A stretch of DNA of 64,000 nt, from NCBI GenBank assembly GCA_946699065.1, contig CAMPDV010000090.1, forward strand, positions 186,001 to 250,000, given 5' to 3'. This document shows, one piece after another, positions 3,146 through 64,000 of the stretch; positions within the stretch are counted from its first letter, which is position 1, and each line of letters opens with the position of its first letter. This DNA comes from Loxodes magnus. Its lineage: Eukaryota > Ciliophora > Karyorelictea > Loxodida > Loxodidae. The notes under the pieces were generated by a model that saw nothing but the letters and a program-made list of their open reading frames with translations, made no database searches and was not told the DNA's origin. Position numbers and translations under genes: made by a program.

Positions 3146-3349
3146 TTAATGATCAAATATTGCTCATTTTTTTGATTCACTACTTTATATAATAATTAGA
3201 ACTAAAAAATGAAGAATTAAAATGTATGAGAAAAATTAAATAACATTTTTAATAAATTCTTAATTAAACCATGAAAGCTTATGATATAGATAAATTTTAA
3301 AATTACATATTTTATTAAAGTAACTTCTCCTTTATTAGGTTTATTATAT

Positions 3350-4060
3350 ATTATTTTATGGAGAAAGTTAATTCCCAATAATAACCTTCTTCTTTATGAT
3401 GGAATTGTATTATGTCTTCCTTTCTCTTATTTCCGCTGAGTTTTTTCTTCATGAGTTTTTCTTCGTCAAACTGATATTGTCTTTTGTTTCATTCTCTTGC
3501 TTCCATTTTTATTTGAGGTATTGTTTGTAGGATTTATTGTTCTTCCCTTCTGTAAAGCTTTGCTTCTCATGTGCAGTATATCATAAGAATTTTATTTCAA
3601 TTTTTTCGTTCTTCTATTTTTCTTTTTTCCTAAAATTTCCAACAGTTTTTTAACTTGTGGCCTTGCTTCTTACAATATCAGCGCCTTGCTATCGATTTTC
3701 TGTATGTATAAATTAATACTTAATTTATTTCTTCTTTCTCTACCTCTACATATTGGAATCACAGCTCATCCCATTTTATATTTTCTAGTTCCTTTCAGAA
3801 TTTATTATTTATAAGCTTTATTCAGTCTGGTGGATTATTGAGAATATTGCCGATCAAAAGGCCTATCAGATATATTATTTTAACTTATTGTTTTCTTGCC
3901 TCAGTTAATCATTATGCTAAATTAGAACACTCACCTTGTTCAAAAATTCTTAGACTGCTTGCTGGAGTTCGTGATTTTCTTTTTGTAGATATTAAAAATA
4001 GATTTATATTTGTTATTGTATTTTAGTGATCTAATTTGGAGATTTTTATTTTTTAGGTTC
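3350..4060 (-). pseudogene. Zinc-knuckle (Gag-like) element ORF, repeat copy 1
   Basis: The minus strand reads, in order, a coiled-coil (KENHELQQAVQEF region), a spacer with several Trp, then a knuckle-like box (WYCKKQGHKLKNCW), then N-Trp-NKILMIY followed by KLYRR. The box keeps C-x4-H-x4-C, but the first Cys is CGC (Arg) in both this copy and the 61-kb copy. The Trp before NKILMIY is TGA and aligns with TGG in the intact element at 20943-21713. At least one frame change lies near 3870 between the coiled-coil and the spacer. Probably a decayed copy of the retroposon family. Confidence 0.6.
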
Positions 4061-4229
4061 CATTTTATTACATATCCTAATATTTTTCATTCCAATGAAA
4101 AATTATTAGATAAAAGGAGATAAAATTCTTAGCTTTTTATTTTAAAAGCTCTTTGTTTATTTTTTTAATGAAAGGCTTTATTATACTTTTGCTTATCATT
4201 TTTGTCAAATAATTTACTAGGAAAATTTT

Positions 4230-5322
4230 TTGTCTCATAAACTACTCAGATATTTACCCTAATTTAATTAATTTGCCATCCAAAGTTTTTCATGACAATA
4301 TTCGGAATTATTTTACCCATCTGCATAAATAAACTTTTTTATTTACTTTTAAGAGCACTGGTTAAAATATGATTTATAGAAAAAATCCAAATATATCTAC
4401 TCAAACTATTAAGCAAGATCATCGTCTTTGATACCACATTGATATTAACGATTATAGCTTTTCGTTTGTCTTTTCCAATAAGAATGGTTTCGTTCAAGTT
4501 TTATTATCCTATTTACCTTAGAAACTGAATTTTTAAAAGATTGCTCCAAATGCATTTCTTACCTTCTAAGTAAAAGTAAAAATATGTAATGTTTGCTTCT
4601 TTAAAGGATTGAAAGATTATTTCTATTAGCCTTTACCAAGATACAATTATGCCATTTATTTAGATTCAATAATTTTTACTCATAGCAGTTTTCGAATGAA
4701 ATCATATAAGACTAACAAGCATATAAAATTAAAATGCTCTAGAATTCCACAGAGTCAGAGTTTTATTATACTCGTTTTGATAAAATATGAAAACTGACAA
4801 AAAAAACTATTTTTTGATTTTGATCCCTCTGATAAAATGATAGATGCTCAAAATTACTAAACTACTATAAAAGCATGATCAACACTCATTATTGAGCACT
4901 TTATTTTTATGCATACAAGCATATTCGTATTTTTCTCAAGTTTATTAAGATAATAACTGATAATGGAATAGTAATGTAGAATGATAAGATAGTAGATGTA
5001 ATTGTTGATAAAGATTGAGTATAAAAATCTTAAACGAGAATCGTTAGAATAATTTCATTTTTCTGCTTAGAAAACTATATATCTGACGTTACTCTTCAGT
5101 TAAAAGAGATAATATTATATTAAAGATGATTTGTCTTAATTAGTTAGAGAACTGAATATGATAACAATAGTATGTTATATTCTCATTTGAAAATACTTGA
5201 AGTAAGCTTAAATTTATCCTTCTAAAAGTTTAAAAAAAATAAAAGATTTAAAAGATAAAGTTCGACTGAACTTTTAAATTCTGTACATAATTACTATTAA
5301 TCTACACTTTTAATAATATTTT
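4230..5322 (+). pseudogene. Decayed two-pass membrane-protein family copy (F1)
   Basis: The plus strand carries the family signatures in order: NYSDIYPNLINL (compare NYIDIYPTQISLL in copy B), GQNMIYRKNPNI, a CNVCFFKG motif, and a TGA-encoded Trp at about 4868 where copy D has TGG. The transmembrane segment and much of the second half are frame-broken. The second membrane segment and C-terminal region cannot be followed, and the gene is cut at 5322 by an inserted element. The 61-kb repeat carries the same decayed gene without the insertion. Confidence 0.65.
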
Positions 5323-7196: not shown

Positions 7197-9413
7197 TCAT
7201 TCGCTATTCATTATTTCTACATTTTTAAGCATCTTTTTATCTATCATTTCAAATAATTTTTTATCAATTGGATCATTTGATTCCTTATTGATTACTTAAC
7301 TACAAAATTCGATAACTTTATCTAGATCCTTTTAAACAGAAGAATTTTCTTATATAGTGCTTTCTTTAAATTTAATCGAAGGAGATAAGGAGAACTATGT
7401 ACTACTCTATGATTCCTCTTGATTAATTTTGATTGCTGGTTTGGAAATATAATTAAAAACGATAATCTAATCTTCATTGAAGATTATTTTCTTCAACTTT
7501 TCAAGCTCTATCATTTTTTTAACTAAAAAATCAGCTTATAAATAATCTTAAATTGTCTCATCTGCTTTTTCAAAAAGTTCAAATTTCTTTTATTTAATAT
7601 TTCCAACCTGAAATTTATTGTATTTGCTTTTCAAGAAACTAGCAAATCTGTAAAAATAGAATTGAAAAAAGTTAATTTTTAAATTGTCTACATTTCTCAC
7701 TTGATTTTCTAAATATAAGTTCTTTTATTCATTCGTCATTCTAAGACTTATTGTTCTTTTATTTTACTAATAAAATTAAAAGTTTTCTGCATCCTCGTTA
7801 CTTGATATAGGGCTAGATTTTATGCTACTTTTTTCTTAAATTCTATTTTAATTTTCTCCTCAAGTTTATGAAAGTTAATCGTTACCTTTTTAGGTGGCAA
7901 CATTTAAAAAATTAAGTTTGGTATCTTCAACTTCTTAGATTTGATGAATATGCTTTTTTATCTCTTCTTCACTTGATGTTTTTTCATTTTAGTTTTTCTA
8001 AATTTCAGTTAACTATTCATTTTAGACCTGCTTATATAAAGATTCAAATTAATTATTTTTATCTTTTTTATTTCTCAAATGATCGTGTATAAACTAGCGT
8101 ATTCCAATTTCTTGATCTTCAATTTAATTTTCATACTATTCATTGCTTTGATTTTGTTTGTCTTCATTTAGAGAATTTATTCTGGAAGGTTTTTTATACT
8201 CTATTTTTTTTCTTTTTTTATATCATCTCAAATTTTCTTTCAATAAGTCTTCTATCTCATTATAGCTAAATTTCAGTTTTTATTATTAGACTATATTTCC
8301 AGTTTAAATTCTAATTTTATCCTCTAAAGTTTGAATTCCAATTTTGTTCTATTTTTATTCTAAATTCAACTCTCCAACATCAAAAATATCTTGAACAAAA
8401 CTATATGAAAAAGCATATCTCGAATACATTTAAACGAGAAAACTGCAGATTATAATTATTATATTAAGAACACCACCGATTTATGAAATCACGTCTTGAA
8501 ACTTCTTATACTTTCTCTTGTACTGAAGTATGTTATCAGATGAAAAAATGTTAAGCATGAAGATGTAAGGATTCTACATATTATAATTTGAGGTTATTTC
8601 TACTTAATCTTTATCTATCACAACATCTTTTATCGTATTTCTATTCTCCATCATAAATCCATCATCAGTTATTATCTCAACAGGCTTGAAAAAAATATTA
8701 GTAAATTTGCTTTGATATAGATCAAGTGCTCAATATTATGTGCTAAGTATACTGTTGACTGGTTTTTCATAGTTCGAAATATCAATTATTTTATCAGAAA
8801 AAAAGATATTAAATTATAGTTATTTCGAAATCAATTCTTCAATCTCTTCTCTCTATGCACATTGTATATCCGAGTCTGTATTATTCTAGCACATTTTAAT
8901 TTTTATATAAATGCCTTTCATTTTAGCTTCAGTTCAAAAACCTCCTAAATCAAAAACGCTTTAATCGAAACATATGTTTTGCTTATATTGCTAATTAAAG
9001 CCATTAAATTCATCTTCAAATCCTTTGAAGAAACTTTCGTTGCATTATTTTATTGGAATTTAGGTGTATATTGCTTTCAAATTTTCCGCCATTATATAAC
9101 CTACTTCGAAGGTAAGATAAGAGCGAGGTACTTGAAGAAGTTAAGTGCTATTTGTAAAGGTGAAAGAAAAACTATAATTATTTATACCTATATACTACCA
9201 AGGACGATGCTCTTATTTAATCGATTAAGATATTACGCTTGGATTAATTTTATAAAACAAATCTTAACCCATATTTATAAAAGCAATCAAAATGAGTACA
9301 TAAGTACAGATGGATAAAATAGTTCCCAAAGAGGAGTGGAATCCTTTCGCCCCTTTGTACATTAAATTAATTGGAAAAGGATAAATATCAATGAAGTTAA
9401 GGTACCTCTACAT
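7197..9413 (-). CDS. Two-pass membrane protein of an amplified family, copy A (738 aa)
   Basis: One unbroken frame from ATG (9411-9413) to TGA (7197-7199) if TAA/TAG are Gln and TGA is Trp. Order: short cytosolic start with YIDIYP; membrane segment about residues 28-49 (ILSICTYVLILIAFINMG); an extracytosolic region with spaced Cys (QCNESFFKGF, CFD, MCQN); a QYKRKYKKFQDVISQIGG motif leading into a second membrane segment near residue 320; then a long Gln/Glu/Lys-rich tail with a conserved helix (FNYISKP). In-frame TGA at 8934-8936 and 8730-8732 match Trp (TGG) in copy D. Function unknown. It resembles the large anonymous transmembrane families of ciliates. The plus-strand ORF at 8979-9317 is its shadow. 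Confidence 0.85.
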
Positions 9414-12400: not shown

Positions 12401-15101
12401 AAAAATCTAGAATATAAATTTTTTTATAAAAGAGATGGTAAACTTCTAAAAAGAAGAAGAAAATTATATAAATTATATTTAAAATTATTTAAAATATACT
12501 TAAAGAAATCATAAATAAAATAAAAAAAATATTAGTTTAATTTAATTAAAATAATAAGAATAAAATAAAATAAAATAGGTTTGAAGGAATTTTTGAATAT
12601 AAAGTTGGTTAATTTAATTTTCTAGAAAGGGTCATAAGATATATGGCAATTAAAAGTCTTGTCTAAAAGTGAAAAATGAGCAAATGATTATAAAAATCGT
12701 ATAAAATTTTAAATAAAATTTGATAAAATTTATTTTACTCTTTAATATAACATTGTTAAAAAAATTACTAATATCGCAGTTATTTTAGTAAAAATGTTAC
12801 AAGAATCTTATAGTAAGTTCAAATAATAATTTTAGCAAGATTATAAAAATTTATTTTTAAATATAATACTTTTAAATTTTCTTAATTGATACAATTATTT
12901 TTAATTTTTTTATCTACATATAGTTTAATTTTATATATATTTTAGAATATTTTAAAATTTTACAAAAGCAAAAAACGATAATATAAGCAAATTTATTTTA
13001 ATTTAAAATTCAAAAAATATGTAATTTATTTTATAAATTATTCTTAGTTAAGAATAAAGCCGGAAAAATAAAAAAGGAATTAAAAAATAATTTCATAATT
13101 AGATTAATTACAAAAAAATTTATTAATTTCTAATTAAATTTAACTTTAAATCCTTTAAAATTTTTAAATATTTGCCAAATCTTAATAAAAATAATATTTT
13201 TATTTTTCGCTAAGAAGAGTAAAAATAATTAAATTTTTTATTAAAAAAATAAATTATTAAAATACGAATCATATCAAAATATAAAATAGATTAAGAAAAT
13301 CTTCATATGTTTTTATAGAGCTTTAAGTTATTATAATATAAACTTAATATTTATTTAGAAAAATTAGAGATAAAAAAGTTCTAAAATTTTTTATAAATAT
13401 AACGATTTAAAAAATTAAATTTTTTTTAATTATCCAAATTACTAAATAAAAAGAAATAAAGAAAATTTGAATATGAATATTAATAAGAGAAACCAAAAAT
13501 CTAAATTTATAATTTCAAAAAAGCAAAATTCGGAAATATAAAATCTGAAATAAATGACTTTTACTATTAAAAATATCTTTATTATCAATTTTTCTCTATG
13601 AATTTGTTTTTATTTTGAAGATTTGAAAAATAAAATATGTTAAAAAAAATAAAAACTAAAAGTTAAATATTTATAAATAGTGAAAGCAAAAAAAACTAAA
13701 TTAAAATTTTATAATTTCTCTAATGATTTTGCAAAAAAGTCATAAATTTCATGAACCAAAATATTTAATAAATTAAATCTTAAAATACTTAGAAATCTAT
13801 GAATTTTAAATTTTAAAGCTAAAAAAATTTATCTAAAATTGAATATGATTTCATTTGATTTTTTTAATTGGAAGAATAAAAAAAAATTAAAATAAAACTA
13901 TTTTTTTGAATTTTATTCTTTAGATAAAAGTTTTGATTTAGTTACAATATTTGTAATGAAAAAGTTTTAAAAGGAAGAAAATTTGCAAATTCAAACATTA
14001 AAATTACACTTAAAAAATTATTAAATCTAAAATTAATCTTATCACATTTATAATAATCGGAAAATTATTAATTAACGCTATTTTAGTTCTTCTATATAAG
14101 ATTCCATAATTAGGGAAATGTTTATAATTAAAGAAGATTTAGTTATTTAACTGAAATTATATTTGCAAGAATAGTCATATATATAATCTTTTTAAAATGA
14201 AATAAAAAGGTATAAAATAAAATCATAAAAAGCAAAAATATTGTAATATTCGAATAATGTAAAGAAATATATTAAAAACATTATTCTTCTATTGCTAGAT
14301 AAAAAATAAAACTTAAGCAAATCCAATAAATTTTTTACAATGATTTAAATATCTATTACAAAGAGTAAAGTTAAAAGCTTAATTTCCTTGTATCGAAATA
14401 TTTACGAATAAATTTTCTTAATAAATTAAGATCTTGAAAGAATCAGATAATCAAATGAAAACAAATTTTTTTAAAGATAAATTAAAATAAGCATCATTTA
14501 TAATTTATAAAAGGATTTATTCAAATAAATGAAACTAAAAAATTAAAATTTAATAGATTTTTTTTCTAAAAAATTAAATAGATAATAGCAAATAATAGGA
14601 TATGAATAAAATAAAGAAGAGAGAAATCATATTGATTCAACCCTTGCAGATGGTTTTGGCTAACTCTGTAATTATGCTAAGTAAATTAATAATTTTAAAA
14701 CTTAAAAATAATTCAAAATTTCAATCTGGATTATATTCTCAAGATTTATGTGACTTATAAAATCGAAAATATCATTGTAAATTACAACTAATATAAAAAA
14801 ATTAAAAATCGTATAAAAATAAAAAAATAAAGGATTAAAACTTTTACATAATTCAAATCAATTTATATCTTCTGTTAAAATAAAAAAATTTTATAAAAAA
14901 GCAAAATTATATTTATTGTTTTTTAGTATTTTAAATTTAATATTTTATTAAATTTAAATTTAATTATTATTTAATTATCAAAATAATTTCTATTAATATT
15001 TATTTCTATATATAGATTTAATTAAGAATTTTCATTAAAAGTATAATAAATTAAAAAAATTAATTAATTAATTTATAGATATAAAAAAAGAGTTTAATTG
15101 C
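9414..15101. other. Long AT-rich stretch without recognisable genes
   Basis: Nearly 5.7 kb of homopolymer-rich A+T sequence of distinctly lower G+C than the coding blocks. Neither strand shows the Gln/Lys/Glu composition of genes here, and I found no family motif, hairpin terminus or target duplication. Confidence 0.6.
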
Positions 15102-17314
15102 TCATTTCTTTTCTACTTCTAGATATTTTATAATATCTTTATCTATCAAATCAAATAGCTTTAAATCTATCACACTCTCTTTTTTATTATTAAGAATTTA
15201 ATTACAAAAATTAAGAACTTTATCTAATTCATTAAACTTCTAGATTTTATCTATTTAGTTATTCTCATTAAATCTTTATAAAGGCGATTAAAAAAATTCT
15301 TTTTCAGCATTTTTTTATGTTTCGCTAATATAAATTTTAGGTTTAGATATGTAATTAAAAACTTTCAGCTGATCTTCATTAAAGATTATGGTTTTCAGTT
15401 TGTCTAATTCTATCATCTTTTTAACTAAGAAATCTGCTTCTAAATAATCATTAAATGTTTCCTTAGCTTTTTCCAAAAGTTCGAACTTTTTCTGATTTAA
15501 TGATGAAAGCCTTTTCTTATTTTTTTTCATCCTAAAGATGCTACACAATTTTTAAAAATAGTATTTAAAAAAGTTTAATTTCAAATGATCTTGAACTTTT
15601 ATTTTAGAGCTTAAATAATAACTTTTGCTTTCATTAGACATCTAAAGCTTTATTTCAAAATTTTATTACTTCGAATCTATTTAAAAATGAGCTTGCTCTA
15701 TATTTAATTACTCAAATTGTCTTTGCTTTAATTCTTTAGCATTCTTTAAAAAATTCTCTCTTCTAGAATTGAGAAGATAATCTTTTTCTTCTTGACTTAT
15801 AATGCTAGAAATATTAAAAGATTCTGTTTCACCGGATTTTCTATAGGTATCCTAAACTTCTTATTCAGCAATTGTTTTTTCAAATGCATTGCTAGGAATT
15901 TCTTTAGGCTTCTTTTTCTTATTTTAATTTTCCTTTTATTAAACCTCAAATTCTTAGCTTTCTTTTTCATCATTCTATTTATTTCTAAAATTAGGGATTT
16001 GACTTAAATTTTCGCTGATTTTGTCTTTATCACTTTCTAAAATCCGATTTTGTCTTTCCTCTGAATAAGGAGTCACAGCTGAAGTTTTATTTTTCGAGAG
16101 TTATCTTTTAGTTTCTGTTCTTCCTGTATCTCCTTACATGCTTTTATCAATTTATTCAGCAGGAATCTTTTTTTTAAACTCAATATCAACATCTCCAATA
16201 TTTTAGTTTTAACTGCTTTTTTGATTCTAAGTATTTGCTATTTCATGATTATCTTCCTTTCTTTATAAGTCTTCTATATCAAAAATATCATTCACAAGTT
16301 CATATGTAAAAGCATATTTCGAGTATATTTAGACTAGTATTTTGGATGTTATGATTATCATACTCAAAATGCCTCCGATTTGAGAAATAACATCTTAGAA
16401 CTTTTTATATTTCCTCTTATATTAAAATAAGTTATCTGAGGAGTAAATATATACCAGAAAAACGTAAGGATTTTCTAAATCTTAGTTAGAAATAGATTCT
16501 AACAAGTCTCTATCTACTGTTACATCTTTAATTGTCTACGAGTTCTCTTTCAAATACCCATCGTCTGTTATTATCTCAATAGGCTTGAAATATATATTTG
16601 TATATTTGTATTAATAGATATCAAGCATTCAATAGTATAAGCTCAGCGTGCTTTGAATAGGATGCTCATAATTTGAAATATCTATTATTTTGCCCGAGTA
16701 TAATATGCTAAAATAAAGCTCTTTCTAAACTAGGTCCTTGATCTCACTCAAAGAAGCACATTTTATTGCTGAATCTGAAGAATTCTGGCACATTTTCACT
16801 TTTATATACAAGTTAGTCATCGACTCTTCTGTTCAATAGCCTCCTAGTTCAAATAATTCTATATCTAGACATATGTTATTATAGTATTCAGGAACTGAGC
16901 TATTGAATTATTATTCAAAGCCTTTGAAGAAGCTTGCATTACATTATTTTGTAGGAATAGGTATGTAAGAAAAGTTTTCAGGTGTTTTTTTATATAACCA
17001 ACCTCGAATGTGAAATAGGAAGGAGGAACTTAGATTATATTAGTGGCGTTTGAAAAAGCTATGGAAAAACTGTAATTGTTAGTCCCAATCTATTGCCAAA
17101 GTCTAGATTTCTGTTTCAAAGTTTAGGTAAGAACATTTGGATTAGTTCTATTAAACATATCTTGACCCATATTTACAAAAGCAAGCAAAAAGAGTATAAA
17201 AGTGCAGATGGAAAGAAATACTCCTATGTAAGTATGAAATCCTCTCGCTCTTTTGTAAAGTAAGGAAATTTGTGTAGGATAAATATCTATGTAGTTTAGA
17301 AGAAAGGGTCCCAT
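15102..17314 (-). pseudogene. Two-pass membrane-protein family, copy B (one frameshift)
   Basis: Starts MGPFLLNYIDIYPTQISLL at 17314 and stops at TGA 15102-15104. The whole family architecture is present: membrane segment (residues about 30-50), Cys-containing ectodomain, QYKRKYKKFQDVISQIGG then a second membrane segment, and a charged tail ending LEVEKK. The length is 2213 nt, one short of a multiple of three. The missing base falls in the poly-T run 16985-16991; one more T would restore agreement with copies A, C and D. TGA at 16833-16835 and 16629-16631 sit at the family's Trp columns. Either a young pseudogene or a homopolymer sequencing error. Confidence 0.8.
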
Positions 17315-20872: not shown

Positions 20873-20891
20873 TTTGGAGGATTTTAATTTA
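20873..20891. repeat. Target-site duplication, left copy (19 bp)
   Basis: TTTGGAGGATTTTAATTTA here and at 21722-21740 bracket the element exactly. It encodes the FGGF of the Kelch blade. Confidence 0.9.
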
Positions 20892-21721
20892 ATTTAATAT
20901 ACTAAATTAAAGTGTTCGTATCTCCAGGGATTTTAAACCCCTTCAATGCATACCTCCAGAGTTCGTTCCTTGAGGTTTAAAATAAAAGTTCGGGACTCCC
21001 AGTTTTTTTGGAGTTCTGGCACTCCCTTGAAAAAGCCTCCTTCTAAATATTCTTCCATCCTTGTCTACATAAATTCTTGAAAGTTCTCTCCAAATCTCTT
21101 CACTGTTTCTTCTCTGTTTATCCAAATATATCTTGCATCTCTTGTATGTGTGGAATTTTGATTTGCACAGGTAGCACAGCTTGACGATCCTTCTGGGAGG
21201 AGTTATCTCTAAGGGTTTTGTGTATTCTAGTTCCATTTTATTTTCAGCTAAAGTTTAAGGTTAAATTCTTTTTTCTCCCAAAAGTTTCACTTCGATTTCC
21301 TGTTTCATTAATCTTTCTTCATTGTTTTAACTTTTCTATAGTAATTTTTGGTTTTCTTTCTTTAATATTTAAACTTCTTCTTATAGGTTACGGATAGATT
21401 TCATAAGTTATTCTATTATTAGCTATTCATCATTTTTCTATTTCTACATTATTTTTTAATTACCACTTTTCATGTAGTTGCTTGATCGTGGCTATGGGAG
21501 TAAAAATTCTCGCTTGCTTTAGTCAGTTTCTGTTGATTTAATTTCTTATTCAATTTAAGATTATCTTTATTTTTCTAAATTTGGGGGTTAAAGAGCTTAA
21601 GAAAATTATTATATTATTAAAGAAGACGTGGTAGGAGAAGAATTAGAAGTCTCTGGTTTTTTTTCCTTTTTCTATGGCGTTGGAAAAAAACCCTTCCTGA
21701 GACCTTCTGCCATTTTTTTTT
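20892..21721 (-). mobile_element. Intact zinc-knuckle retroposon, 830 bp
   Basis: On the minus strand the element begins with a poly-A run running into ATG (21713). It carries one intact ORF, then a 3' region with a GGGGTTTAAAATCCC hairpin, and ends AGTATATTAAAT. A perfect 19-bp direct repeat flanks it. A 5'-truncated copy with the same 3' end and two differences over 212 bp lies at 54968-55179. No terminal inverted repeats, LTRs, transposase or reverse transcriptase are present. It resembles ORF1-only LINE derivatives mobilised in trans. Confidence 0.9.
20943..21713 (-). CDS. Coiled-coil plus CCHC zinc-knuckle protein (Gag/ORF1-like, 256 aa)
   Basis: ATG 21711-21713 to TGA 20943-20945, read with TAA/TAG as Gln. 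It has a Pro/Ser/Gln-rich N-terminus, a leucine-zipper-like coiled-coil (about residues 115-160), then a knuckle C-Y-L-C-KSKF-H-TYKR-C. This is followed by a motif found in every family member, IWRELSRIY then GRIFRRRLF, and a basic tail with RTPKKLGVP. CCHC knuckles of 2-4-4 spacing bind single-stranded nucleic acid in Gag and LINE ORF1 proteins, so the likely role is packaging the element RNA. Only the second half is seen by a standard-code ORF search. It is the only copy here that is demonstrably full length and open. Confidence 0.85.
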
Positions 21722-21740
21722 TTTGGAGGATTTTAATTTA
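21722..21740. repeat. Target-site duplication, right copy (19 bp)
   Basis: Second copy of TTTGGAGGATTTTAATTTA; see 20873-20891. Confidence 0.9.
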
Positions 21741-24215: not shown

Positions 24216-24579
24216 TATTTATAAATTTTATAAATTGCTTGCTAAATAAGAATAATAATTTAATTCAATACTTATTTTATACTTTGTTATGGTTAAGTAA
24301 AAAAGTGAATAAAAAATCCATTTTCATTAAAAAATTTTTGTCATTTTAATTAATTTTATATTTAATAAAATAATTTAAAGATATGAATTCTATCTAGTAA
24401 TTTTTTAATATTAAGATTGTATTATTTCAAATTATTATTATATTAAATAAGTGAAATATACCAAATAATAAATCATATATTAATAAGGAATTAATTAAAG
24501 AAATTAAAAAATATTTTAAACTCGATAATTTCAAATCATTAATCATTAAAATAACTGTCCGCCTTCGACTTAATTGACG

Positions 24580-25040
24580 TTTTAAATGCATAAATCTCCG
24601 TTACAGCATGTTCGTTCCTTGCATTGTTCTTTTTCCTTGACTTCTCTCTTTTGAATAATCTGATTTAGAATTTTTTTCTCCAGATATTCCTTCTTATTTA
24701 TTTCTATTGGGGACATTCCCATCATAAATGTCAAGTGCTGTTGCAAATTATCATCTTTTTCTTGCTCTAGGAAATGTCTTCTCTTACTTCTCTATTTCCA
24801 TTGGAGTTCCTTAAGAAGGCTTCTGCAGGTTTCCTTCTATTAATTTGAGTCTTGATTCTAGTTTTACTCAGTTTTTCTCGTCTTGCTCTTGCATTTTTCA
24901 AATATCATTCTCTGAACTTGTAATTTACTCATAAACTCATACTTTAGTTCTTCGGTCTACATATGGGCTTCATCTTCATCTTCATGATTTATCAAATCCT
25001 GACTTATTACAAGAATCTCTTCCTTTCGGAAGTTTAAATT
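24580..25040 (-). pseudogene. Decayed charged ORF, possible zinc-knuckle element
   Basis: The minus strand reads about 150 codons rich in Glu, Lys and Gln, with a coiled-coil-like stretch (TEELKYEFMSKLQVQRMIF). Near 24735 a partial knuckle remnant (Cys..His..Cys in another frame) can be made out. Composition matches the retroposon ORFs, but the box and the Trp-x-x-L motif are not intact, so family membership is tentative. Confidence 0.4.
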
Positions 25041-30400: not shown

Positions 30401-31529
30401 ATTAACTTTGTTTCAAATAAAAAAGTCAAGATAATTTCTCCTTTCAAACTTATAAAAAAAACAATTTCTTTATTTTATAACTTTCATAAATATCAAAGAA
30501 TTATTCAAAGGATTTAGGAAGATTCTATAATTAATAAATATTTAATTTTTGCTCTTAGTGGATATATAATCTTATGCTAATACCAATTTAATATAAAAGG
30601 CTAATGATTTTAATTCGTAAAAATGTTTTCATTAAAAGAAATAAAAAATAAAAATTTAGAAAGAAATAATTTTTTATCATCGGGTAGAACTACGAAAATA
30701 AAGATATTTATGATAAAGTTGGTTTATTTATAGAAAGCTTTCTATAGTGAAGAATCTCTTTTAATTAATCTATTATATATACTCTAAATTTTATAGCAAA
30801 TTTAAAAAAAAAATTTTGAGTAATATGAGTTTAAAAAATAGAGAATAAAAATTTTAATTAAATCTAAAAAAATAAAATTTCTTATTTAATCTTAAATTAA
30901 AATAAAAAGAAAAATATAATAAAATTTCAGTTAATATTTAAATTAAAATTAATTACTTAAGATAAATAAAATCTAAAGCTTGAAATAAAAGTTTGTTGAG
31001 ACGATGTTTTTATTTAAGCAGTTAAAATAATCTGAGATGATACAAATAGAATAAAAAAATTATTGATTCTTAAAAATCTAAAAGTAGAATTAATATTTTT
31101 AAAATAAAATAAATATTTATGTATATATTTTAATTCTAGCTTATTTTAAATAAAAAAAATTTGTTGAAAAATATTTAAAAAAAATAAAAAATTTTATCTA
31201 AAACAAATTTTATTTAAATAATTACTTAAAAAATAAAGATAAAAATTTAAAATGAAACAATTAAATTAAATATTTGAAATTCTAGAATTAAAACGTTAAT
31301 GAAATAGTACCATCATAAAATAATATGATTTTAATAAAATAATTTAACGAAAAAATGAATTATCGTTATAAATTTTCTTTAGCTAAAAAAATAAAAATGC
31401 TTATGTAAAAATATAAAATTTAATTATGTTACTAACTTAATATGTAGGAATCAATTTAAAAATAGTTATATGTCTTAGTCACTAATTATATAATAAAAAT
31501 AATAAAAAAAATACTTTAAATTTAAGTTC
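27445..31529. other. Long AT-rich stretch without recognisable genes
   Basis: About 4 kb of A+T-rich DNA. Short Gln/Lys stretches are readable under the altered code, as expected when no codon blocks translation, but none has supporting motifs. Confidence 0.5.
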
Positions 31530-33714
31530 TCATTTTTTCTACTTCTGCGTGCTTGAGAATTTTTTATCGAGTGGATTGGGTAAATTTATGTCTATTAAGC
31601 TTCCAATTTTTTTATTGAGGATCTTATTACAAAAATCAAGTACTTTGTCTAGATCTTTATACACAACTTTATTTTCATTTTAAGTATGTTTTCTAAAATT
31701 TACAAAAGGAGATAATATAAATTCGTGATTGGTATATGGCACTATATCGTCCACTTTAATTAACGGTTTAGATATAAAATTAAAAGCAGCCATTTGTTCT
31801 TTACCGAGGATAATTTCTTTCAGCTATTCCGACTCAATCAATTTTTTTACTAAAAACTTTGCTTCAAAGCAGTCGTAAAATGTTTCATTAGCTTTATCAA
31901 AAAGTTTAATTTTCTTCTGAATTTTTTTTCGATTTATTTTCATTCCCTTATTTTTGCAAATACCTATCATTTTGTAGAAATATTACTTAAAAAGTTTATT
32001 TTCAAGTGGTCTTCAGACTTTTTTTTCGATTTCAAATATTTGGATTTTTTAATATTTGACATTTGAATTTTTATTATCATTTTTTCATTCTAGATTCTCT
32101 TTTATTAATTAGGAATATTCTAATTTGCTTTGATTTCTTAATCTTGATTATTTTTTTCCTTAATTCTTTAGATATTTTAACGTTATGATATCAATAGATA
32201 GTCATTTTCATCTTTATTAAATACACTCATAGATTTAAGAAAAATGTTGTCAGGCTCATTGGACTTTTGATAGAATTCTGACATTTCGCTTTTAATAAGA
32301 GTTTTTTCAAATTAATTACCTGAGTTTATATCAAATTGCTTCGTTTCTGCTTTATTCTCCTTTGGTTTTTACACGAAAATTTTAGTTTTTTTACATTCAG
32401 ACTCTTCAATTAAAAATTTTTAACTTCTATAGCCTTGTTACTTAAATTACTCACGTTATTTTTTAGAATATAATTTTTCTACTCTTCTGAAAGTGACTCT
32501 ATAGTTGCTACTTAATTCGAAACTATTTTTCTTTAATTTTTTTAATCTACGCTTTCTTATATTCCATCAGTTTATATTTCTACTTTTATTATTTACCAAT
32601 ATCCCTTATTTTCATGTTTTATTCTATTTTCCAATATTCATCATTTTCTTCTTTTTAATTTGGACTAAAATTTCCTTGTAACTCTTCTAGATCAAAATAT
32701 CATTAATAGAACTATGCGAAAGCATATTTAGAATATTCTTTCACTAGAACTGAGCAAACCAGAATGATAACACTAATAACACCTCCTATTTGTGAAATCA
32801 CTTCCTAGATTTTTTTATACCTTCTCTTATATTAGAGAATGCTGTCTGACGAATAAATAATAACCTCAAAAATGTAAGAGTTCTGTAGATTTTGATTCTA
32901 TATAGACTCCACTTAGTTTTTATCAATTGCCACGCCTTTTATTATCTTTTTATCCTTCAACATAAAACCACTGTCAGGCACTATTTCGACAGGTTTTGCG
33001 GAAAATGCTAGTATATTTGTAAGTATAAATATCAAACATTCAAAAATATGCACTAACCTTGATTTTTATAGGAGTTTCCTAGTTCACAATATCTATAGGT
33101 TTATCAGCGAGGGGGATATAAAAATATAGCTCGCTTTCAATCATTTTTTCGATCTCACCCAGTGGAGCGCATTTTATATCTGAGTCGGAAGAATTCTGAC
33201 ACATATTCACTCTCACATATATACTACTCATAAAGTCTTCAGTAAAATAACCTCCCAAATCGAAGGTTCAAGATCAAGACATGTATTGAGTTAAAGTTCT
33301 TCTGAATAATCATCGAGATATTTTTTTAAGCCTTTAAAAAAACTTAAATTGCACTATTTGGTTGGAATTGGATAGTAAGTATAGTTTTAGAACTCCTCTT
33401 TCATATATCCAGCTTCAATGGTGAAATAAGAAGGAGGAACTTAAATTTATCAGTAGTGTTCGCTAAGACAAGGGAAATGCTGTAATTATTTATCCCAATA
33501 TACTGCCAAGATCTAGTTTCCTATTTTATTGTTTACGAAATAACAAAAAGGATTTCTTTGAAGTATCATATCTTATCTCATATTTACAAAAGCAAGGACA
33601 GAAAGTATATATATGCATATTGACAAAGAGATGTATGAAACCTATTTTCTCTCTTGTACAGCAGACTGATTTATGAAGGATAATATCTATATAACTAATA
33701 ATTTAAGACAACAT
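31530..33714 (-). pseudogene. Two-pass membrane-protein family, copy C (decayed)
   Basis: It extends from a possible ATG at 33714 to TGA 31530-31532. Family signatures are clear: FDLGGYFTEDFM, MCQNSSDSDIKC, the Trp column as TGA (33040-33042), QYKRRYKKIQEVISQIGG before a second membrane segment, and a C-terminus ending STQKQKK. The first 250 nt, including the first membrane segment, need several frame changes. Another change lies near 33010, between YTYKYTS and KPVEIV. It is therefore a pseudogene, although its second half is still well conserved. Confidence 0.75.
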
Positions 33715-35807: not shown

Positions 35808-36205
35808 ATGGGAAGACAGGATTCTATAGCAGTCTCTTCACGTGAAAATCTGTTTTAATACCAAAATCAATATTACTAAGATGTATAGAGATGGAATAGA
35901 AAAGAAAGGGTTGAAACGTGCAAGTTAGTAAGAGGAGAGAGGATAAAAGAGCGAAAACTGTAAGATTACAGTGATAAATAAGTAGCATCAATGGAAAATC
36001 AATTAGCGGAAGTGATTGAAGGGGGATTATAAAAAATGAAACTTCAAGGAGAAACTTAAGTAGCATCAAAGATGAAAAGAAGTAGATAACTAAACTTCAG
36101 CTAAAAGCTTTATCATCATAAATACTATCCAGCACATTGCTAACAGAATTAAAGGGTGAAAGTTCCAGTATGGAGCAGTAATATAATAATAAGTTATTTT
36201 AGTGT
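35808..36205 (+). CDS. Short charged protein gene, possible 5' part of the kinase gene
   Basis: ATG 35808 opens MGRQDSIAVSSRENLFQYQ and continues as a Glu/Lys/Gln-rich helical protein. A GT..AG segment of 26 nt (36082-36107) fits as an intron and keeps a coding-like frame (LSSTLLTELKGESSSMEQQ). That frame reaches the kinase ATG at 36314 without shift and without TGA, so this may be an N-terminal extension of the kinase rather than a separate gene. The intervening 36205-36313 looks like ordinary AT-rich spacer, so I list it separately. The minus ORF 35824-36069 is a shadow. Confidence 0.45.
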
Positions 36206-36313
36206 TCATTGTAGATTGATAAGTCATAATAAATATCTAGAATAAACAAAAATTATAAGATAAATCACTCTCTTTAAAGAGTCTTTTTAATCTTTATAAA
36301 TTGTAATAAAAAT

Positions 36314-38799
36314 ATGGATCAGCAGACTTTCGAAGCTGCTTAAGTCTATATTTAGTAATAAGGATTTCTATAAAACTTGGAATAATTTGGAGTCAAAACT
36401 ATATATGCAGAAGAACTCGAGTAAGGAGATCTACTAGGAAGTGGAGGCTATGGAGATGTTTACAAAGGGATTTATAAGTCAATTGAAGTTGCAATTAAAC
36501 GATTCAAGCAAGCCAGAAACAAGAACTTGAACCAAAGTATTGACGAATTTTTCAATGATATAACACCCTGGTGTAAGCTAAGACACCATAGGTTTGTGGC
36601 ACTTTATGGAATTAGTGTAGACAAGGGATTGGCTATAATATCTGAACTTTGTAAGGAAACTTGCTTCTAAGCGATTCCCAGACTTTAGTAGCCAGGAAAT
36701 GAAAAGCTAATGGCCAGAATATGCTGCGAGCTTGCAGAAGCTTTACTCATCATGCATGAGTTTTATAATCTAGTTCACCGAGATATCAAGTGCTTGAATG
36801 TCTTACTGGATAAAAATGATCATGTTAAAGTATGTGATATGGGACTTGCTAGGAACTTAGTGCAGATTGCAAAATCTGAAAATAAATCATAACAATAACT
36901 TTAATAGATAAGCCAACAAGCATCATCAGCAGCGACTTCAAAGTAAATAGATATGAATTAAGAATCAATTGTCATTGAAGTAAAAAAGTTCACTAATTTA
37001 GTTGAAGCTACTTTAAGATTCATGGCTCCAGAGTATTTCAAAACGAAAAAAATTTTGACAAAGGCAGTGGATACTTATGCCTATGGCTGCACACTGCTAT
37101 AGTTATATGCAAATAAGCTTCCATTTTAATATGAAGAGGAAATAAATAAAAAAAAGATGAATGATCAAGAAATCAGAAGTTCCTTGTTTAAGGATATCAT
37201 TCCTTAGATTCCACAGGGAGTTCCTTATTTTATTAAAGATATTATAGAAAGATGTCTACGAGCTGATCCTTCAAAAAGACCGAAAATGAAGGAAATATTT
37301 GATAAATTTGAGACTATTTTGAATGATGAAGATGAGTTCTAAAGGAACTTCCTTCAGTAAAGCATGCCATAACAGATACAGCCAAAAACGAAGATAATGT
37401 TTATGCCTGATTCGTAAATTTAATATGAAAAAAGCGAGTATCAATTTGTAGAAATTGAGTATTACATGAATCAAAATAACATGTTTAATGCTAGACTGGT
37501 TACAGAGTAACCAGAAGAAATTAAAATTAATTAGCCTCCTTCTAATCCAAATAATGCTTCAAATCTAAGTCAATTAGAAATGTCAAATCTAAAAAGAGTA
37601 GAATCAGAGGAAACATTTTGGGAAGATGAAAATAATTAATAAGTTTAAGAATAAAAAGTAACCTCACCTTCTGCTTTATAAGCTCAACCATTATAAGAAG
37701 AGAAAAAATTTGATGAGATTTATAAGTAAAAGCCATCTACAGTGCCTAATTTACCACCTATTGATTAAAAGCAGCATTTAATAAGAGAAGTAGATGAATC
37801 CTAAATCGTTGAAATCACTATGTACGATAAATAAACAGGAAATTCTGTTGCAGTCAAAGTACCTGAAATTAAGTTAACTAACCAAAGTGTTTAGTATTAA
37901 ATTGAATTTCAAGCTAAGAATCTATAAGGCTAAAATTAACTATAATTAGGTAAGTATTTTACTATTTAGTCCAACTAAATTAAAACTTAACTTCATAGAA
38001 TCCTAATATTGCTGTTATTTAAGAACATCCTGTTAGGTCCACTATGTATACTCAGAGTAATAACTATCTTCAGCCTTTTGAATTATAACCTCAACATTTC
38101 AGTTAAATTCAATAAAACTTACCTCAAACTTATATAGGAGATGCCCCTGGGTAAATTCCTAATGGAAGAGGCAGAAAGAAGTTCCCTGATGGAACTGTTT
38201 ATGATGGAGAGTTTAAAAATGGCATGTTTCATGGAAAAGGAACTTGCAACTATCCTGATGGAGGTGTATATACTGGTGAGTTTGTGGAAAATAAGAGATA
38301 AGGGATAGGAAAATACGTTTGGGGTGATGGAAGTTCCTATGAAGGAATGTGGTCAAATGACAAGAGAGGAGGAAGGCCTATAGGTGATAAAGGAATATTT
38401 ATACTAGCGAATGGAGATAAATACGATGGTATGTTTAGATAAGATAAAAAGGATGGAATAGGCTATTATACTTTTAAGAATGGAGATTATTATGAGGGAT
38501 AATTCAAAATTGACTTAATTAATGGAAGAGGAAAGTACAAATGGGCAAATGGCTAAATATATGATGGATAATTCGAAAAAGAAAAAATGCAAGGATTTGG
38601 AGAAATGACATACGTAAATGGAGAGATTTATAAAGGAAATTGGAAGAGAAATAAACGAGAAGGAATTGGAATTTTGACAACACCTGATGGATTAGAAATG
38701 AAAGGACCTTGGAAGAATAATTTTATGAATGGAAAATTCAAAATAGACTATCCAAATGGAAAAGAGGAAGAAGCTAAATTTGTGATGGGCGTGAGATAG
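36314..38799 (+). CDS. TKL-like protein kinase with C-terminal MORN repeats (821 aa)
   Basis: ATG 36314; one intron at 37950-37969; ends at TAG 38797-38799 after the last repeat. Kinase domain about residues 36-335: glycine loop LLGSGGYGDVYKG (41-52 region), VAIK lysine 62, HRDIKCLNVLLD (155 on), DMG in place of DFG (175), MAPEYF, then a Gln-rich linker and about eight MORN repeats (for example YPDGGVYTGEF). The order and HRDIKxxN resemble tyrosine-kinase-like families. MORN repeats often bind membranes or scaffold. No TGA is in frame in the gene. If TAG is Gln here too, the frame runs on to TGA 39073-39075, but that tail has no coding look. Substrate unknown. Confidence 0.85.
37950..37969 (+). 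other. Spliceosomal intron, 20 nt
   Basis: GTAAGTATTTTACTATTTAG. Removing it joins the kinase-linker frame to the MORN frame; without removal the two are out of phase. The length is not a multiple of three, so the call is well constrained. Confidence 0.85.
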
Positions 38800-41285: not shown

Positions 41286-42834
41286 ATTATATAATTAGGC
41301 AAAGCTTTCTTATATATTGCTAAGGAGAAAGTATTATCTTTAAAACTTTTCGTTTTTGGTATATTCAATAAAAATGGGCAACTGTATTCATAGTTTATAT
41401 CTAATAAACGAAAAATTAGAAAGCAATCATTTCTTAAAAAAGGTAAAGCTATAATGCTTAGGCTTTCTTAAAAATACCTCATTATTAAATTATAAGATAT
41501 TAAATCACAAGCATACAACACTCTCGCTTGAAAAGGTTAAGAATTACTTAAGAGAAAAAGAGACAAAAGGGTGTATGAATAATAAAAGGTAGATAAATAG
41601 AGATTATCTAGTGAATAAATAGATTAACTAAACTTGATTACTTTATAGATTTTTAGGTATAAGTTTGCATACTTGAACATTATAAATAATATTATGGATA
41701 TGAGCTAGATAAATTCTTATATTTAAGGTAATTAAAATAACTAAGCTTTCAACAAGAAATAGAACTAACAAAATATGTCTTGCAACAAGATATAAAAGAA
41801 TTCTAGATTGTGTATCTCTAATAAAAGACAATAGAGACATCTTACTTGTTCACTTACCCTTAGCTCTTCTAAATTTTCAATAATGTCTTATTTCTAAAAA
41901 TTTATATCAAAATTAATGAAAAATGCATGAAGATAAAATATGAAAGCCAAGCCCTTTTCTTTAAATTATATATTAAATAAATTTGGTTTTAAATATATGA
42001 CAAGTAGGCTTATAAAATATGATGATGGAGAGTTAAGTATACTTTAACTCTATACCATCAGAAATATTATTGAATCTATTCCGACCTTTCTATTTATGCA
42101 TATCTATAAAAGGATAATGTTCTGACTAATATACTTTATTGAACTTTCTTAAAATTATTAGAATAGTGAGATATTAACTCACTGAGTGATTTATAATCTT
42201 CATATTAAGCACTAATGAAATAGCTAACTTACTTTAATATGAAATGAGAATAAAAGAAATGCTCTAATAAAAATTTTAATTCCTTTTTGATAAGCTCATT
42301 CATCAAATTCTACAAATGGAACTATTATTTAGCTTCGTCTTCTCAAATTTACTCAAATCAAACAGTTTGTAAAAAGTTCATGCTAAACCATGAAATCATG
42401 TTGTTAGCTCAATTTTCTTAATTTCTGTCTGTTATTCTAAAATCCCATCTCAGATGTATCCCAAAAAAATTAGTTAAGTTTGAATTCTGGTACAATAATT
42501 TTAAGATTCTCCAATTTTTTATATACCTTTTAAAGCAAAATATTTAGATAACTTATGCTATGTAATTTAAAAAAATAAATTTGAGGTAAAAGTTCTTTAT
42601 GGTATGGATTAAAATAAAAAGAAAATTAAATTAAAGTGAGTATAACAATTTATTATTAAATTGCTTCAATTAAAAAATACCATATTAAAATAATTGATTT
42701 GAGAGATCCAATCTAAAATAAGGATTTCTTTTCAACTTTAAAACTTAAAATTTAGAATGGTGATTAAAATAAATAATATAAACTTAAAAATAATTAGATG
42801 AAATATATAAAAGTTAAAAAGCTTTGTTAAAACC
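41286..42834. other. Spacer with no supported gene
   Basis: The minus strand at 41643-41840 could encode a short hydrophobic peptide (MSLLSFIRDTQS start) but has no homologue in the window and no defined gene structure. Otherwise A+T-rich. Confidence 0.4.
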
Positions 42835-43569
42835 TTAGTAGTCAGCCTTCTGACCTATTCTATCAGCTTGTCTCCATTAGCTTGTCTTGAATTTCTACTA
42901 TGCTTAGTTAGGCGATGTAGCACTTTATTAGTGCACCATCCTTTAATATTCGGAATAGTTTTGATCTTGCACGTTGCGTTTCTAATTATTTCTCCAAAGA
43001 TTAAGATTTGAATTAAAGAATTTTTTTCTATAAATTTTTCCGCTTTATGTTGGATATATCCTAAATAGTTTTCTAAAAATATCTTATTTATTCTTTCTTT
43101 AAATTTCGCTAAATTAGTAACAGTATTTTCATTTGTGCTATTTATTGCACACGTAGCATTTTATTCTTCTTTTAAACTATTATTCCTGTAACACTTATTT
43201 AATTTAAATTTACTATTTATTTTAAATAAACGTTTACTGTTTATTTTAATTTGAAGCTTCATTTTATATTTCCATAGAATCTGCATAATTCTGTTAAAAA
43301 GAAAATGGCGTTTTCTGAATTTATTATTAAATTTAAAGAATTCTTTGTTCCAGTTTGTCTTCTATTTCTTATGATTATTAATATTGTTTCTCAAGCAAAG
43401 ACGTTATTAGTTTTTCTACTTTATCAGTGAGGTATCTATTTTTGAACATAAATTCTTTTAATGACTTAGATAATATTTCTATTTGAGTTTGTGTCGGAAG
43501 TTTTTACAATTCTGGATTTCCAAGTGATTAATATTCGTCATATCAATCATATTTCTCACTTTCACTCAT
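42835..43569 (-). CDS. Zinc-knuckle element protein, full ORF (about 244 aa)
   Basis: ATG 43567-43569 (MSESEKYD) reads through without break. Order: acidic start, coiled-coil (LTDKVEKLITSLLEKQYQQ), a Gln/Asn-rich spacer, a knuckle C-YV-C-NKQ-H-KWKY-C (2-3-4 spacing, one residue shorter than usual), then RKLFRIY and GKIYRKKFF. The latter matches the family motif (W/x)RELSRIY..GRIFRRRLF. TGA codes Trp in the N-terminal YDWYDE and in the knuckle HKWKYC. The end is ambiguous; TAA 42835-42837 follows the terminal hairpin region (42911-42941). No target duplication was found around it. Likely another retroposon copy, older than the 20.9-kb one. Confidence 0.65.
42911..42941 (-). other. Element-terminal hairpin, variant stem
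   Basis: On the minus strand GGATGGTGCAC pairs with GTGCTACATCGCC. Compared with the 58.5-kb hairpin the outer stem bases differ on both sides but still pair, which suggests selection on the fold. Confidence 0.5.
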
Positions 43570-44269
43570 TGTAATTATTTCGCTTTTTTATTTTTTAGAG
43601 AATTTTCCTGTTTAAATATTTTGTTCAAAGTTCTGTTATTTCTTAGAAGCCATTTTATATATATTTTAATAACAAATAACGATTCTTTATAATTAATATT
43701 ATTTCCCTTTTGGAACTAGTAAAACTTACTTTTATATTACTTTACTCAAAAGGATTGATAAAATGTCTTAGTGTTGCTCTATTTATTTAAAGAGGATTTT
43801 TTATGGGTTTGATAAGTATGTCTATCTTAAGAATTTTTTTAATTTAAGTTGTATAATTTGAGTTTGGAGTAGATTTCATACAAAGCTACTCCTACTCCAA
43901 GTTTACTGGATAAATGATTTCCGTTATAAAATTGACATTTTCTTATTAATCCCTTTTATTTTAGACTTCGACGATTTTTTTTTATTGATATATTATTATA
44001 ATAGAAATAAAATAAAATTCGTTTTGCGAAAAATTCTTAAATTTTCTGAGATGCAAAAAACTTAAAATTAAGATAAATTCAAAATTTTAAGAGTTAAAAT
44101 AGCGTTTTAGTGACAATGGAGAGATAGAAGAATTGAAAGGTAATGAGATAATGAAAGTTAATTGAAAAGAAAGCTTAAAGGATGTAAATCTTAAATAATA
44201 GTTCCTAAAGGAGAAGGGTAAAGGAAAATTTTAGCTTCAAAAAAGGATTAAAGATGGTTAAGGACTATT

Positions 44270-47046: not shown

Positions 47047-47505
47047 TTTATTAGCCAAGATACTATTCCAAAACTATGTTTAAATATATTGAAATCAAAC
47101 TTCTTTATATCTACAATTTATTTTCTTAGTTGCTTTATACGAAAAACCATTTTTGACTATATGCTTATAAAGCAAAAATTTAGTTAGACTTATTTAAAAC
47201 CAAAACAAGCCTTTATTGTATTCTTATACCTTTGACTTGTATTTCGTTATGCCTAATTTATAGCTCCTTTTTTATATCCCATAAATATGCTTTAATTTAG
47301 AAAATTTTCTCAATTCTATAAACCATTAGATTAAAAAAAATGATACCTAAGAAACAATAAACTTCTTCAAAAAATCCTAATAATTAACCAGATTTTTCCA
47401 ACGTTTTTATTTGCTACAATCGAACAATTAAAAGCTAGCAAAAGAAGTTTAAGACCTTAAATAAATAACCTAATCACTAATGCTAACATTTAACAATTAA
47501 AAAAA

Positions 47506-48049
47506 ATGAAATCCTTAGAAACAATAAAAATAGCAGACTTCTTCTTAAGAGATGGAAGGGTAAATTAATCATATCGAATGGAACTTAAGTCAAAAGCTTG
47601 ACCAGACGATCAATTAACTTGAGAAAAATCAACTTAATTTACGATCGAATCCAGAATCAAGAGGAGTGCAGAAATCGTCCTTCTCATATTAGAAAATAGT
47701 AAAAAGATGTTGATACTGGAAAAAACACGGACATAAGGCAAACCGATGCTGTAGATTCAAGAGAAAATAATATTATGAAACAAAAAGAGAAATCCAAAAT
47801 CTATTTAAGATCTATTGCCCACCAAACGGAAGAACATACTTAAGAAAAAGATTTTAACCTTACGTAGAATCTCCAAAGATTACCCATGCACTGAGACAAT
47901 TTGAGAATTGATAAATAGGATTTGATTTCCAAGCAGTAGCAAGAGGATAAAATAGGCATTCGTAAGAATTTACGATCTGGAAAAACCAGATGAACATGAC
48001 ATCGAAGATTTCTGATAAGAAAAAACTTTTACAAACTCTAATTTTGTGA
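47506..48049 (+). pseudogene. Zinc-knuckle element, one frameshift
   Basis: A poly-A run leads into ATG 47506, as in the 5.3- and 20.9-kb elements. From about 47550 on the frame reads a coiled-coil (LSQKLDQTINQLEKNQLN), then a knuckle in which the second Cys is Trp (C-WY-W-KKHG-H-KANR-C), then REIQNLFKIY and GRTYLRKRF, a clear match to the family motif. The last frame runs to TGA 48047-48049. The ATG is out of frame with the rest, and the lost Cys should disable zinc binding. Decayed copy. Confidence 0.65.
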
Positions 48050-61254: not shown

Positions 61255-61469
61255 TCATGCTTCATCCTTTTTGATGCACTACTTTTTATAAAAATTTATA
61301 TAGTGATTAAAAATAAAAAATGACGAATTAAAATGTATGAGAGAAAATTAAATAAAATTTTTAATAAATTCTTAATTTGACCATGAAAGTTTATTTTAGA
61401 GATAAATTTTAAAATTACATAATTTATTAAAGTAACTTCTCCTTTATTTGGTTTATCATATATTATTTT

Positions 61470-62130
61470 ATGAAGATAGTTAATTCCCAATTATAATCTT
61501 CTTCTTCATGATGGAATTTTATTATGTCTTCCTTTCACTTATTTCCGCTGAGACTTGTCTTCATAAGTTTTCCTACGTAAAATTTATATTGTCTTTTGTT
61601 TCATTCTCTTGCTTCCATTTTTATTTGAGGTATTGTTTGTAGGATTTATTGTTCTTTCCTTCTGTAAAGCTTTGCTTCTCATGTGCAGTATATCATAAGA
61701 ATTTTATTTCAATTTTTTAGTTCTTCTATTTTTTTTTCTCTAAAATTTCAAACAGTTTTTTAACTTGTGACTTTGCTTCTTGCAATATCAGCGCCTTACT
61801 ATCAATCTTCTGTATGTATAAATTAATGCTTAATTTATTTCTTGTTTCTCTATCTTTACATATTGGGATCATAGTTCATCTTATTTTATATTTTCTAGTT
61901 CCTTTCAGAATTTATTATTTATTATCTTTATTCAGTCTGGTGGATTATTGAGAATATTGCCGATCAGAAGGCCTATTACGACATATTATTTTAATTCATT
62001 GTTTTCTTGTCTCAATTAATCATTTTGCTAAATTAGAACACTCACTTTGTTCGAAAGTTCTTAGACTGCTTGTTAGAGTTTAATATTTTCTTTTTGTAGA
62101 TATAAAAAATAGATTTTTATTTCTTATTGT
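61470..62130 (-). pseudogene. Zinc-knuckle element ORF, repeat copy 2
   Basis: Same organisation as 3350-4060, with the knuckle read as R-WY-C-KKQS-H-KLKN-C. The first Cys is Arg in both copies, so that loss predates the duplication. The short ORF 61296-61490 in another frame is not significant. Confidence 0.55.
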
Positions 62131-62309
62131 ATTTTAGTGGTCTAATTTGGAGATTTTTATTTTTTAAGCTCCATTTTATTATTAGATAAAAGGAGATAAA
62201 ATTCTTAGCTTTTCATTTTAAAAGTTCTTTTGTTTATTTTTTTAATGAAAGGCTTTATTAAACTTTTTTTTATCGTTTTTTGCAAATAATTTACAAGGAA
62301 ATTTTTTGT

Positions 62310-63400: not shown

Positions 63401-64000
63401 TTTTTAGCTTCTTATGCTTAGAAATCCTTTCACTATTACTTAAAATACTTAAAAATAAGAAAAAAAACTAATAAACCATTGAAATATACCATTATTCTTA
63501 ATCACCTACTATAAGTTTTAGTTCTTCTTTTATCTCGGTATTAAAGCTATATATAAAAAGGGTACCTTACTTCTTCAAAATCCAATTGAATTTGCAATGA
63601 AAATAATCCTATCTTTTAAAGAATATCTAGAATTAGCCTTTTATTTAAGTCTAAATTATATCTAATTTATTACTTAGAGCTAGTTAATAATTTACTTAGC
63701 AAGATTAAGTTTTTAATTAGTAAGCATTATGCTTTATTAAAGTCATAGTGTCATTTGGATATTTTTGTATCTCTTTAGTGAGAAAATAAAAGTTGATCGA
63801 TTTTTAAGGATTTTATAAGGTCTTAAAAAAGGAGAGTTTTAAAAAAGTGTAATTGAAGTTTAGAAATGAAATTGGAGAAAGAATTGCTTCCATTTTAGCA
63901 ATTTGCATTACTCATAAAAGAAACTCACAAGTTAAAATGTATAAAAAAAGATCGAAAATCATTAGAATGGCTTTTAGATGATTCTTTTATAGCATTTTGA

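Follow-up and report, generated by a model that had tools for sequence, protein, structure and literature searches.

The question raised by this locus is how an 830-bp sequence with a single open reading frame (ORF) came to be inserted in the Loxodes magnus genome, and by what machinery it is copied. The element lies at positions 20892..21721 of the stretch of DNA analyzed here (64,000 nucleotides, hereafter the window), with its sense on the minus strand and with boundaries defined by the flanking duplication and by genome copies. An exact 19-mer, TTTGGAGGATTTTAATTTA, adjoins it as a target-site duplication on the left (20873..20891) and on the right (21722..21740; neither copy is assigned a strand), and is held by the plus strand of the window at 20873 and 21722 only. 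The initial annotation had described an 830-bp element with a perfect 19-bp target duplication, and these coordinates proved exact.

Read in the sense direction, the element begins with a leader of 8 A (21714..21721, minus strand, read from the sequence) that abuts the ATG at 21713, as had been noted. The poly-A of the element is thus a 5′ leader, not a tail. The ORF (20943..21713, minus strand) runs from this ATG to a TGA stop at 20943-20945 and translates into 256 codons with no in-frame TGA (code 6, TAA and TAG read as glutamine). It is followed by a 3′ UTR and 3′ end of 51 nt (20892..20942, minus strand, delimited by genome copies) that closes with …GGAGATACGAACACTTTAATTTAGTATATTAAAT; across the family AAAT repeats usually come after it, as in …TTTAATTTAGTATATTAAAT(AAAT)n. 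Its length fits the mean 3′ UTR of 53 bp given for L. magnus genes (PMC11441545). A Pfam search found no transposase or RT domain within the 830 bp, and its ends form no inverted repeat with each other, in keeping with the proposal of an ORF1-only unit without RT or inverted termini. No tRNA was found within the element. No match to the RT motif [FY]ADD[ILMV] occurs in the window, and Rfam yielded no family in the window at gathering score, the best match within the element having an E-value of 0.79.

The window also contains a gene-family unit of ~2.2 kb in four copies (7212-9401, 15093-17302, 31521-33693 and 52432-54599) that are about 65-72% identical; three of its ORFs were scanned and gave no clear Pfam domain. 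Two 2.1-kb segments, 3184-5322 and 61295-63403, are 91% identical, and an 812-aa ORF at 36170-38608 encodes a protein kinase domain (E 1.7e-40).

Two empty sites give direct evidence of insertion. The flanks of the window copy, once joined, match without interruption at C90:264038-264358 (99%) and at C90:389044-389363 (98%), and because these empty sites match the joined flanks, insertion with target duplication is established. The segment around the element is present four times on contig C90 (at 206.9, 264.0, 335.6 and 389.0 kb), twice filled (C90:206892 and C90:335554) and twice empty. These four segments reflect either local duplications that preceded and followed the insertion, or haplotypes present in the assembly.

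To describe the family, 705,730,643 bases in 7,843 contigs were searched. The 36-nt 3′ end was recovered at 224 places in the genome (≤3 mismatches), compared with 0 for the reversed-pattern control, and a 30-nt 3′-end pattern at 147, compared with 0 for its control; first-look candidates (1337 and 9713, and 3403 for RT) were unscored and are not taken as copy counts. Loci L001-L060, after removal of those with repeated flanks, gave 44 distinct insertion sites. Flanks matched over at least 11 bp at 43 of these 44 sites (median 15), compared with 1.2% of mismatched flank pairs (44 × 43). The target duplications for which a genome-wide check had been advised are thus present at nearly all sites examined, and the description of the element as an intact retroposon was upheld. 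The duplication measures 11 to 19 bp at 42 sites, the exceptions being L040 (7 bp, exact) and L028, where a 27-bp match is uninformative because the site falls within a TAA microsatellite. The target context is T/AAA-like in a consensus from 42 sites, in which A is inflated by picking the duplication as the longest match.

Copies of the element are uniform in extent. Only two of the 44 sites are 5′-truncated (L014 and L045), and the full-length copies share identical end boundaries. None of the 44 sites carrying the element's 3′ end runs on into sequence other than the element, and none is a LINE. At 34 of the 44 sites the 3′ end is extended by one or more additional AAAT units, a count that may run into the target duplication; the window copy is among the 10 without. 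One copy, L006 (C628:122201-123028), ends in a run of ~25 A with no AAAT repeats, and because of this A-run, polyadenylated transcripts may also serve as templates. Across full-length copies the A-rich leader, which runs into ATGG, varies from 5 to 16 A and is preceded by AC or AT in 36 of 42 and by ATAC or ATAT in 20 of 42, neither of which stands ahead of the A-run in the window copy. Mean pairwise divergence among the 42 full-length copies is 0.73%. The family is very young, high in copy number, mostly full length and mostly with an open ORF.

The encoded protein was examined for features of an ORF1-type product. Residues 180-193 (21135..21176, minus strand, read by eye from the translation) spell CYLCKSKFHTYKRC, a C-X2-C-X4-H-X4-C arrangement extending from C180 to C193 which we take to be a CCHC zinc knuckle, and 63 residues lie C-terminal of it. 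A Pfam search of the protein returned nothing significant (best E 0.11), and a sequence search of the PDB found no relative (best E 1.5). A single-sequence AlphaFold model predicted one long helix at residues 82-148 (21270..21470, minus strand), with pLDDT of 89-98 in the 10-residue blocks from 91 to 140, at most 75 in all other blocks, and 59.7 on average. This predicted helix may form a coiled coil, and the earlier picture of a coiled coil plus CCHC knuckle in one ORF was upheld with that qualification.

Relatives of the element occur nearby in the window, as the initial annotation had stated. A 5′-truncated copy of the same family (L045; 54967..55179, plus strand) retains the last 213 bp at 99% identity and has its own 16-bp duplication. 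Three further sequences are more distant. Type B is represented by a 5′-truncated, decayed copy in two pieces (24535..25037, minus strand) with ~85% identity to the type B copy in L059. Type C (42732..43652, ends approximate, minus strand) is diverged and starts with TATATAAAATGGCTTCTAAG; its tblastn match covers 43006-43158 (E 8e-8). Type D (47340..47990, ends approximate, plus strand) is diverged and decayed, with a tblastn match at 47693-47878 (E 0.001). The type B unit is ~1.06 kb long and, besides the decayed window copy, has copies in L059, L013 and L062; the L013 copy was seen by eye to have its own duplication, and the 3′ end of type B is unlike that of the element. The element is nested inside a type B copy twice, at L049/L059 and at L013. 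Types C and D have related knuckle regions, although both have diverged and are either decayed or in a different frame; the alignment of the element with them was out of frame and was set aside.

Is the protein needed for mobility, or is it a passenger? If the element were a SINE-like parasite mobilized in trans, the protein would be unneeded and the ORF would be open merely since the family is young. A mean divergence of 0.73% indeed leaves little time for decay, and the 256-aa frame is kept in 34 of the 42 full-length copies but frameshifted in the other 8. No in-frame TGA was found among the best 148 of 9713 protein-search candidates, a set biased to intact copies because it is the top-scoring one. 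Changes private to one copy look neutral (36 nonsynonymous and 13 synonymous; 13/49 against a neutral expectation of 24.8% synonymous), as this explanation would have it. Changes shared by at least two copies, used as a proxy for the source lineage, lean in the other direction, with 6 nonsynonymous and 7 synonymous (7/13; p 0.023 vs. expectation), although the test has 13 shared changes to go on, and their difference from the private ones does not reach significance (Fisher p 0.094). We regard this as a weak hint of selection acting on the element's ORF. A coding ORF is not expected of the SINE class at all, related knuckle regions are found in types B, C and D (in copies that are decayed or differently framed), and the solo-ORF1 elements described in Paramecium likewise retain their ORF (PMC5405496). 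Taken with these observations, a SINE-like parasite with a dispensable protein appears unlikely.

The source of the missing enzymatic functions was sought among LINEs. The initial annotation had proposed looking for a LINE by its 3′ end or by the hairpin GGGGTTTAAAATCCC; no such match was found, and a connection is present at the 5′ end instead. An autonomous LINE, here LINE A, has RVT_1 (6e-36) and Exo_endo_phos_2 (3.5e-11) domains, and one copy on C97 extends ~5.5 kb from 5′ module to tail. Local alignment of the first ~105 nt of the element, taken from the sister copy L039 (corresponding to 21617..21720, minus strand, in the window), with the 5′ end of LINE A scored 48, compared with a mean of 17.5 and a maximum of 28 in 500 shuffles. 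The same module scored 56 against type B (maximum of 500 shuffles 29), and type B scored 110 against the 5′ end of LINE A (shuffle maximum 30), while none of six 5′-module alignments with types C and D exceeded the shuffle maximum. These alignments establish homology between the initial ~105 nt of the element and the 5′ terminus of a LINE that encodes both endonuclease (EN) and RT. It is a homology of nucleotide sequence, since the indels are partly frame-breaking. The LINE A 5′ module was found at 518 places in the genome compared with 0 for the control, and on contigs with matches listed for both module and RT (41 RT places) there were 33 module/RT pairs, 3212-3651 bp apart (median 3322). 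Given these counts and this spacing, the module is the 5′ region of the LINE.

At the other end the element and the LINEs differ. LINE A (13 copies read) closes with a GC stem and TTTA repeats, and a stem with TTAA repeats closes both LINE b, read at one locus, and LINE X, read at one site; the element's own 3′ end resembles none of these. For LINE Y (L004 and L059), a clear 3′ end was not found in the stretch read. Each of the LINE families A, b and X (read at L061 1-112, L034 1-687 and L092) has its own small GC stem followed by a short A/T repeat. Folding of the LINE A 3′ stem, the sole LINE stem folded, gave a z-score of -1.88. The element's hairpin GGGGTTTAAAATCCC did not exceed shuffled sequences in stability (z -0.51 and -0.37) and was for this reason rejected as a LINE recognition stem. 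Among the observed details that were checked, this stability was the only one that did not hold.

A helper LINE was also looked for by eye, comparing the listed 3′-end places with 150 RT places listed of 3403 candidates. Among these listed matches eight contigs were shared (C15, C225, C366, C473, C587, C689, C820 and C5131), and on these no same-strand RT had an element 3′ end in the 5 kb downstream of it; C5131 carries an element 3′ end close to an RT on the opposite strand. At C20:2028-7877 and C5131:12904-26349, RT matches recur every 2,532 bp, a pattern that a LINE fragment turned into a tandem array would give.

These comparisons bear on whether the element arose, like mammalian half-L1 (HAL1), by internal deletion of one LINE with retention of ORF1 and of that LINE's own 3′ end. 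The homology of the first ~105 nt to LINE A is what such a deletion would leave, and a CCHC knuckle is present in the LINE A ORF1 (CCLCKVKGHTDQQC) as well as in the element protein. However, the element protein does not appear to be simply the LINE A ORF1: a tblastn search with the latter over the window and L001-L060, the element included, gave no match at E≤1, and in pairwise comparison the two proteins were 24% identical over 55 aa around the knuckle only (E 7e-4). With a 3′ end and tail that also differ from those of LINEs A, b and X, derivation by internal deletion seems to us improbable, although the parent may be a LINE outside those sampled.

Two further explanations fare worse. Retrocopying of a cellular mRNA by LINE machinery would account for an intronless, mRNA-like unit with a short 3′ UTR resembling those of host genes, but it sits poorly with more than 100 near-identical copies, with AAAT repeats instead of poly-A at 34 of the 44 sites and with a 5′ module common to the element and a LINE. 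An intron-bearing, single-copy parent gene was not seen in the genome copy and protein searches, and we consider this origin very improbable. A DNA transposon, MITE or IES-type insertion would likewise appear as a discrete insertion between direct repeats, yet the two ends do not pair as inverted repeats, the duplication has no fixed length, the AAAT tail is variable and 5′ truncation occurs, which leaves this class scarcely credible.

We therefore interpret the element as a non-autonomous non-LTR retroposon, a "solo ORF1" whose sole product is an ORF1-type protein and whose copying proceeds in trans through target-primed reverse transcription, and we place the probability of this reading at roughly 0.88. 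A zinc finger toward the C-terminus of the ORF, a short A/T-rich 3′ repeat and target duplications, as in solo-ORF1 elements, are all present. Transcription of such a retroposon would start at its own 5′ end, with the shared 5′ module as a putative promoter, and a leader of ~10 nt would lead into translation of an ORF1-type RNA-binding protein. This protein would coat the element's own RNA, and the resulting RNA-protein particle would borrow EN and RT from some LINE. At T/AAA-like sites, a nick of the APE type may then prime reverse transcription on the AAAU tail, and this priming would yield mostly full-length insertions.

A more specific scenario can be put forward only tentatively, and we think it rather doubtful. 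The element could be a selected "Gag-only" retroposon and not a passive deletion product, with a protein that attaches in cis to the RNA encoding it and lets the element outcompete LINEs for their RT. Its 5′ promoter module would have been taken from a LINE and its 3′ recognition end would respond to a different helper, making it a modular chimera that spreads in the somatic genome. Ciliates usually clear the somatic genome of such elements.

The resemblance to ORF1-only LINE derivatives suggested in the initial annotation was upheld, and comparable systems are known. Its statement that no ciliate family of this design had been described was not borne out, as seven Paramecium solo-ORF1 elements (A-G) with a zinc finger at the end of ORF1 are described by Guerin et al. 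(2017; PMC5405496), the only source in a limited literature search to use the term "solo ORF1." According to the relevant sections of that paper, the Paramecium solo ORF1s are probably mobilized in trans, and three have (TAAA)n tails. As far as can be judged by description only, the architecture of those in Paramecium tetraurelia is the same as that of the Loxodes element, which differs in having 63 residues after the knuckle. The germline-limited part of the Paramecium genome is reported to hold 92% of all its TE copies (PMC5405496), whereas the 224 places with the Loxodes 3′ end were found in an assembly that is probably somatic.

More distant parallels are found outside ciliates. HAL1 is likewise a non-autonomous LINE derivative that encodes ORF1p only, but is described as deriving from L1 (PMC5753468), whereas the ~0.83-kb Loxodes unit shares its 5′ end with one LINE and its 3′ end with none of those read. 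Drosophila HeT-A, as described in PMC4700185, encodes an ORF1/Gag-type protein without RT and depends on another element, as here; it adds to chromosome ends, in contrast to the dispersed sites with target duplications occupied by the Loxodes element. The Pr77 sequence of trypanosomatids is a 5′ module of ~77 nt found in LINEs and in short non-autonomous elements, where it has promoter activity. The likeness to Pr77 is confined to the sharing of a 5′ module, and a promoter role for the Loxodes module is putative.

For Loxodes itself, the passages on repeats in PMC11441545 describe two complete LINE families together with numerous repeats left unclassified, and name no ORF1-only element; the same source gives 706 Mbp for the L. 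magnus MAC assembly and treats UGA as an ambiguous stop. The LINEs of 5-6 kb with RVT_1 and Exo_endo_phos_2 described there carry RT, which the element does not, and going by that description they probably include LINE A.

The design is thus already known in ciliates and the Loxodes element is a new example of it. What is new here is a very young, high-copy family that shares a 5′ module with a LINE, the weak hint that its ORF is under selection and, probably, the karyorelict host. The finding probably extends ORF1-only retroposons from the oligohymenophorean Paramecium to a karyorelict, and their presence in both points to a design that is either old or recurrent in ciliates. Since the copies examined are very young, and most are full length and most have an open ORF, the family is well suited to asking what a LINE ORF1 protein does for its own RNA when the RT comes from elsewhere.
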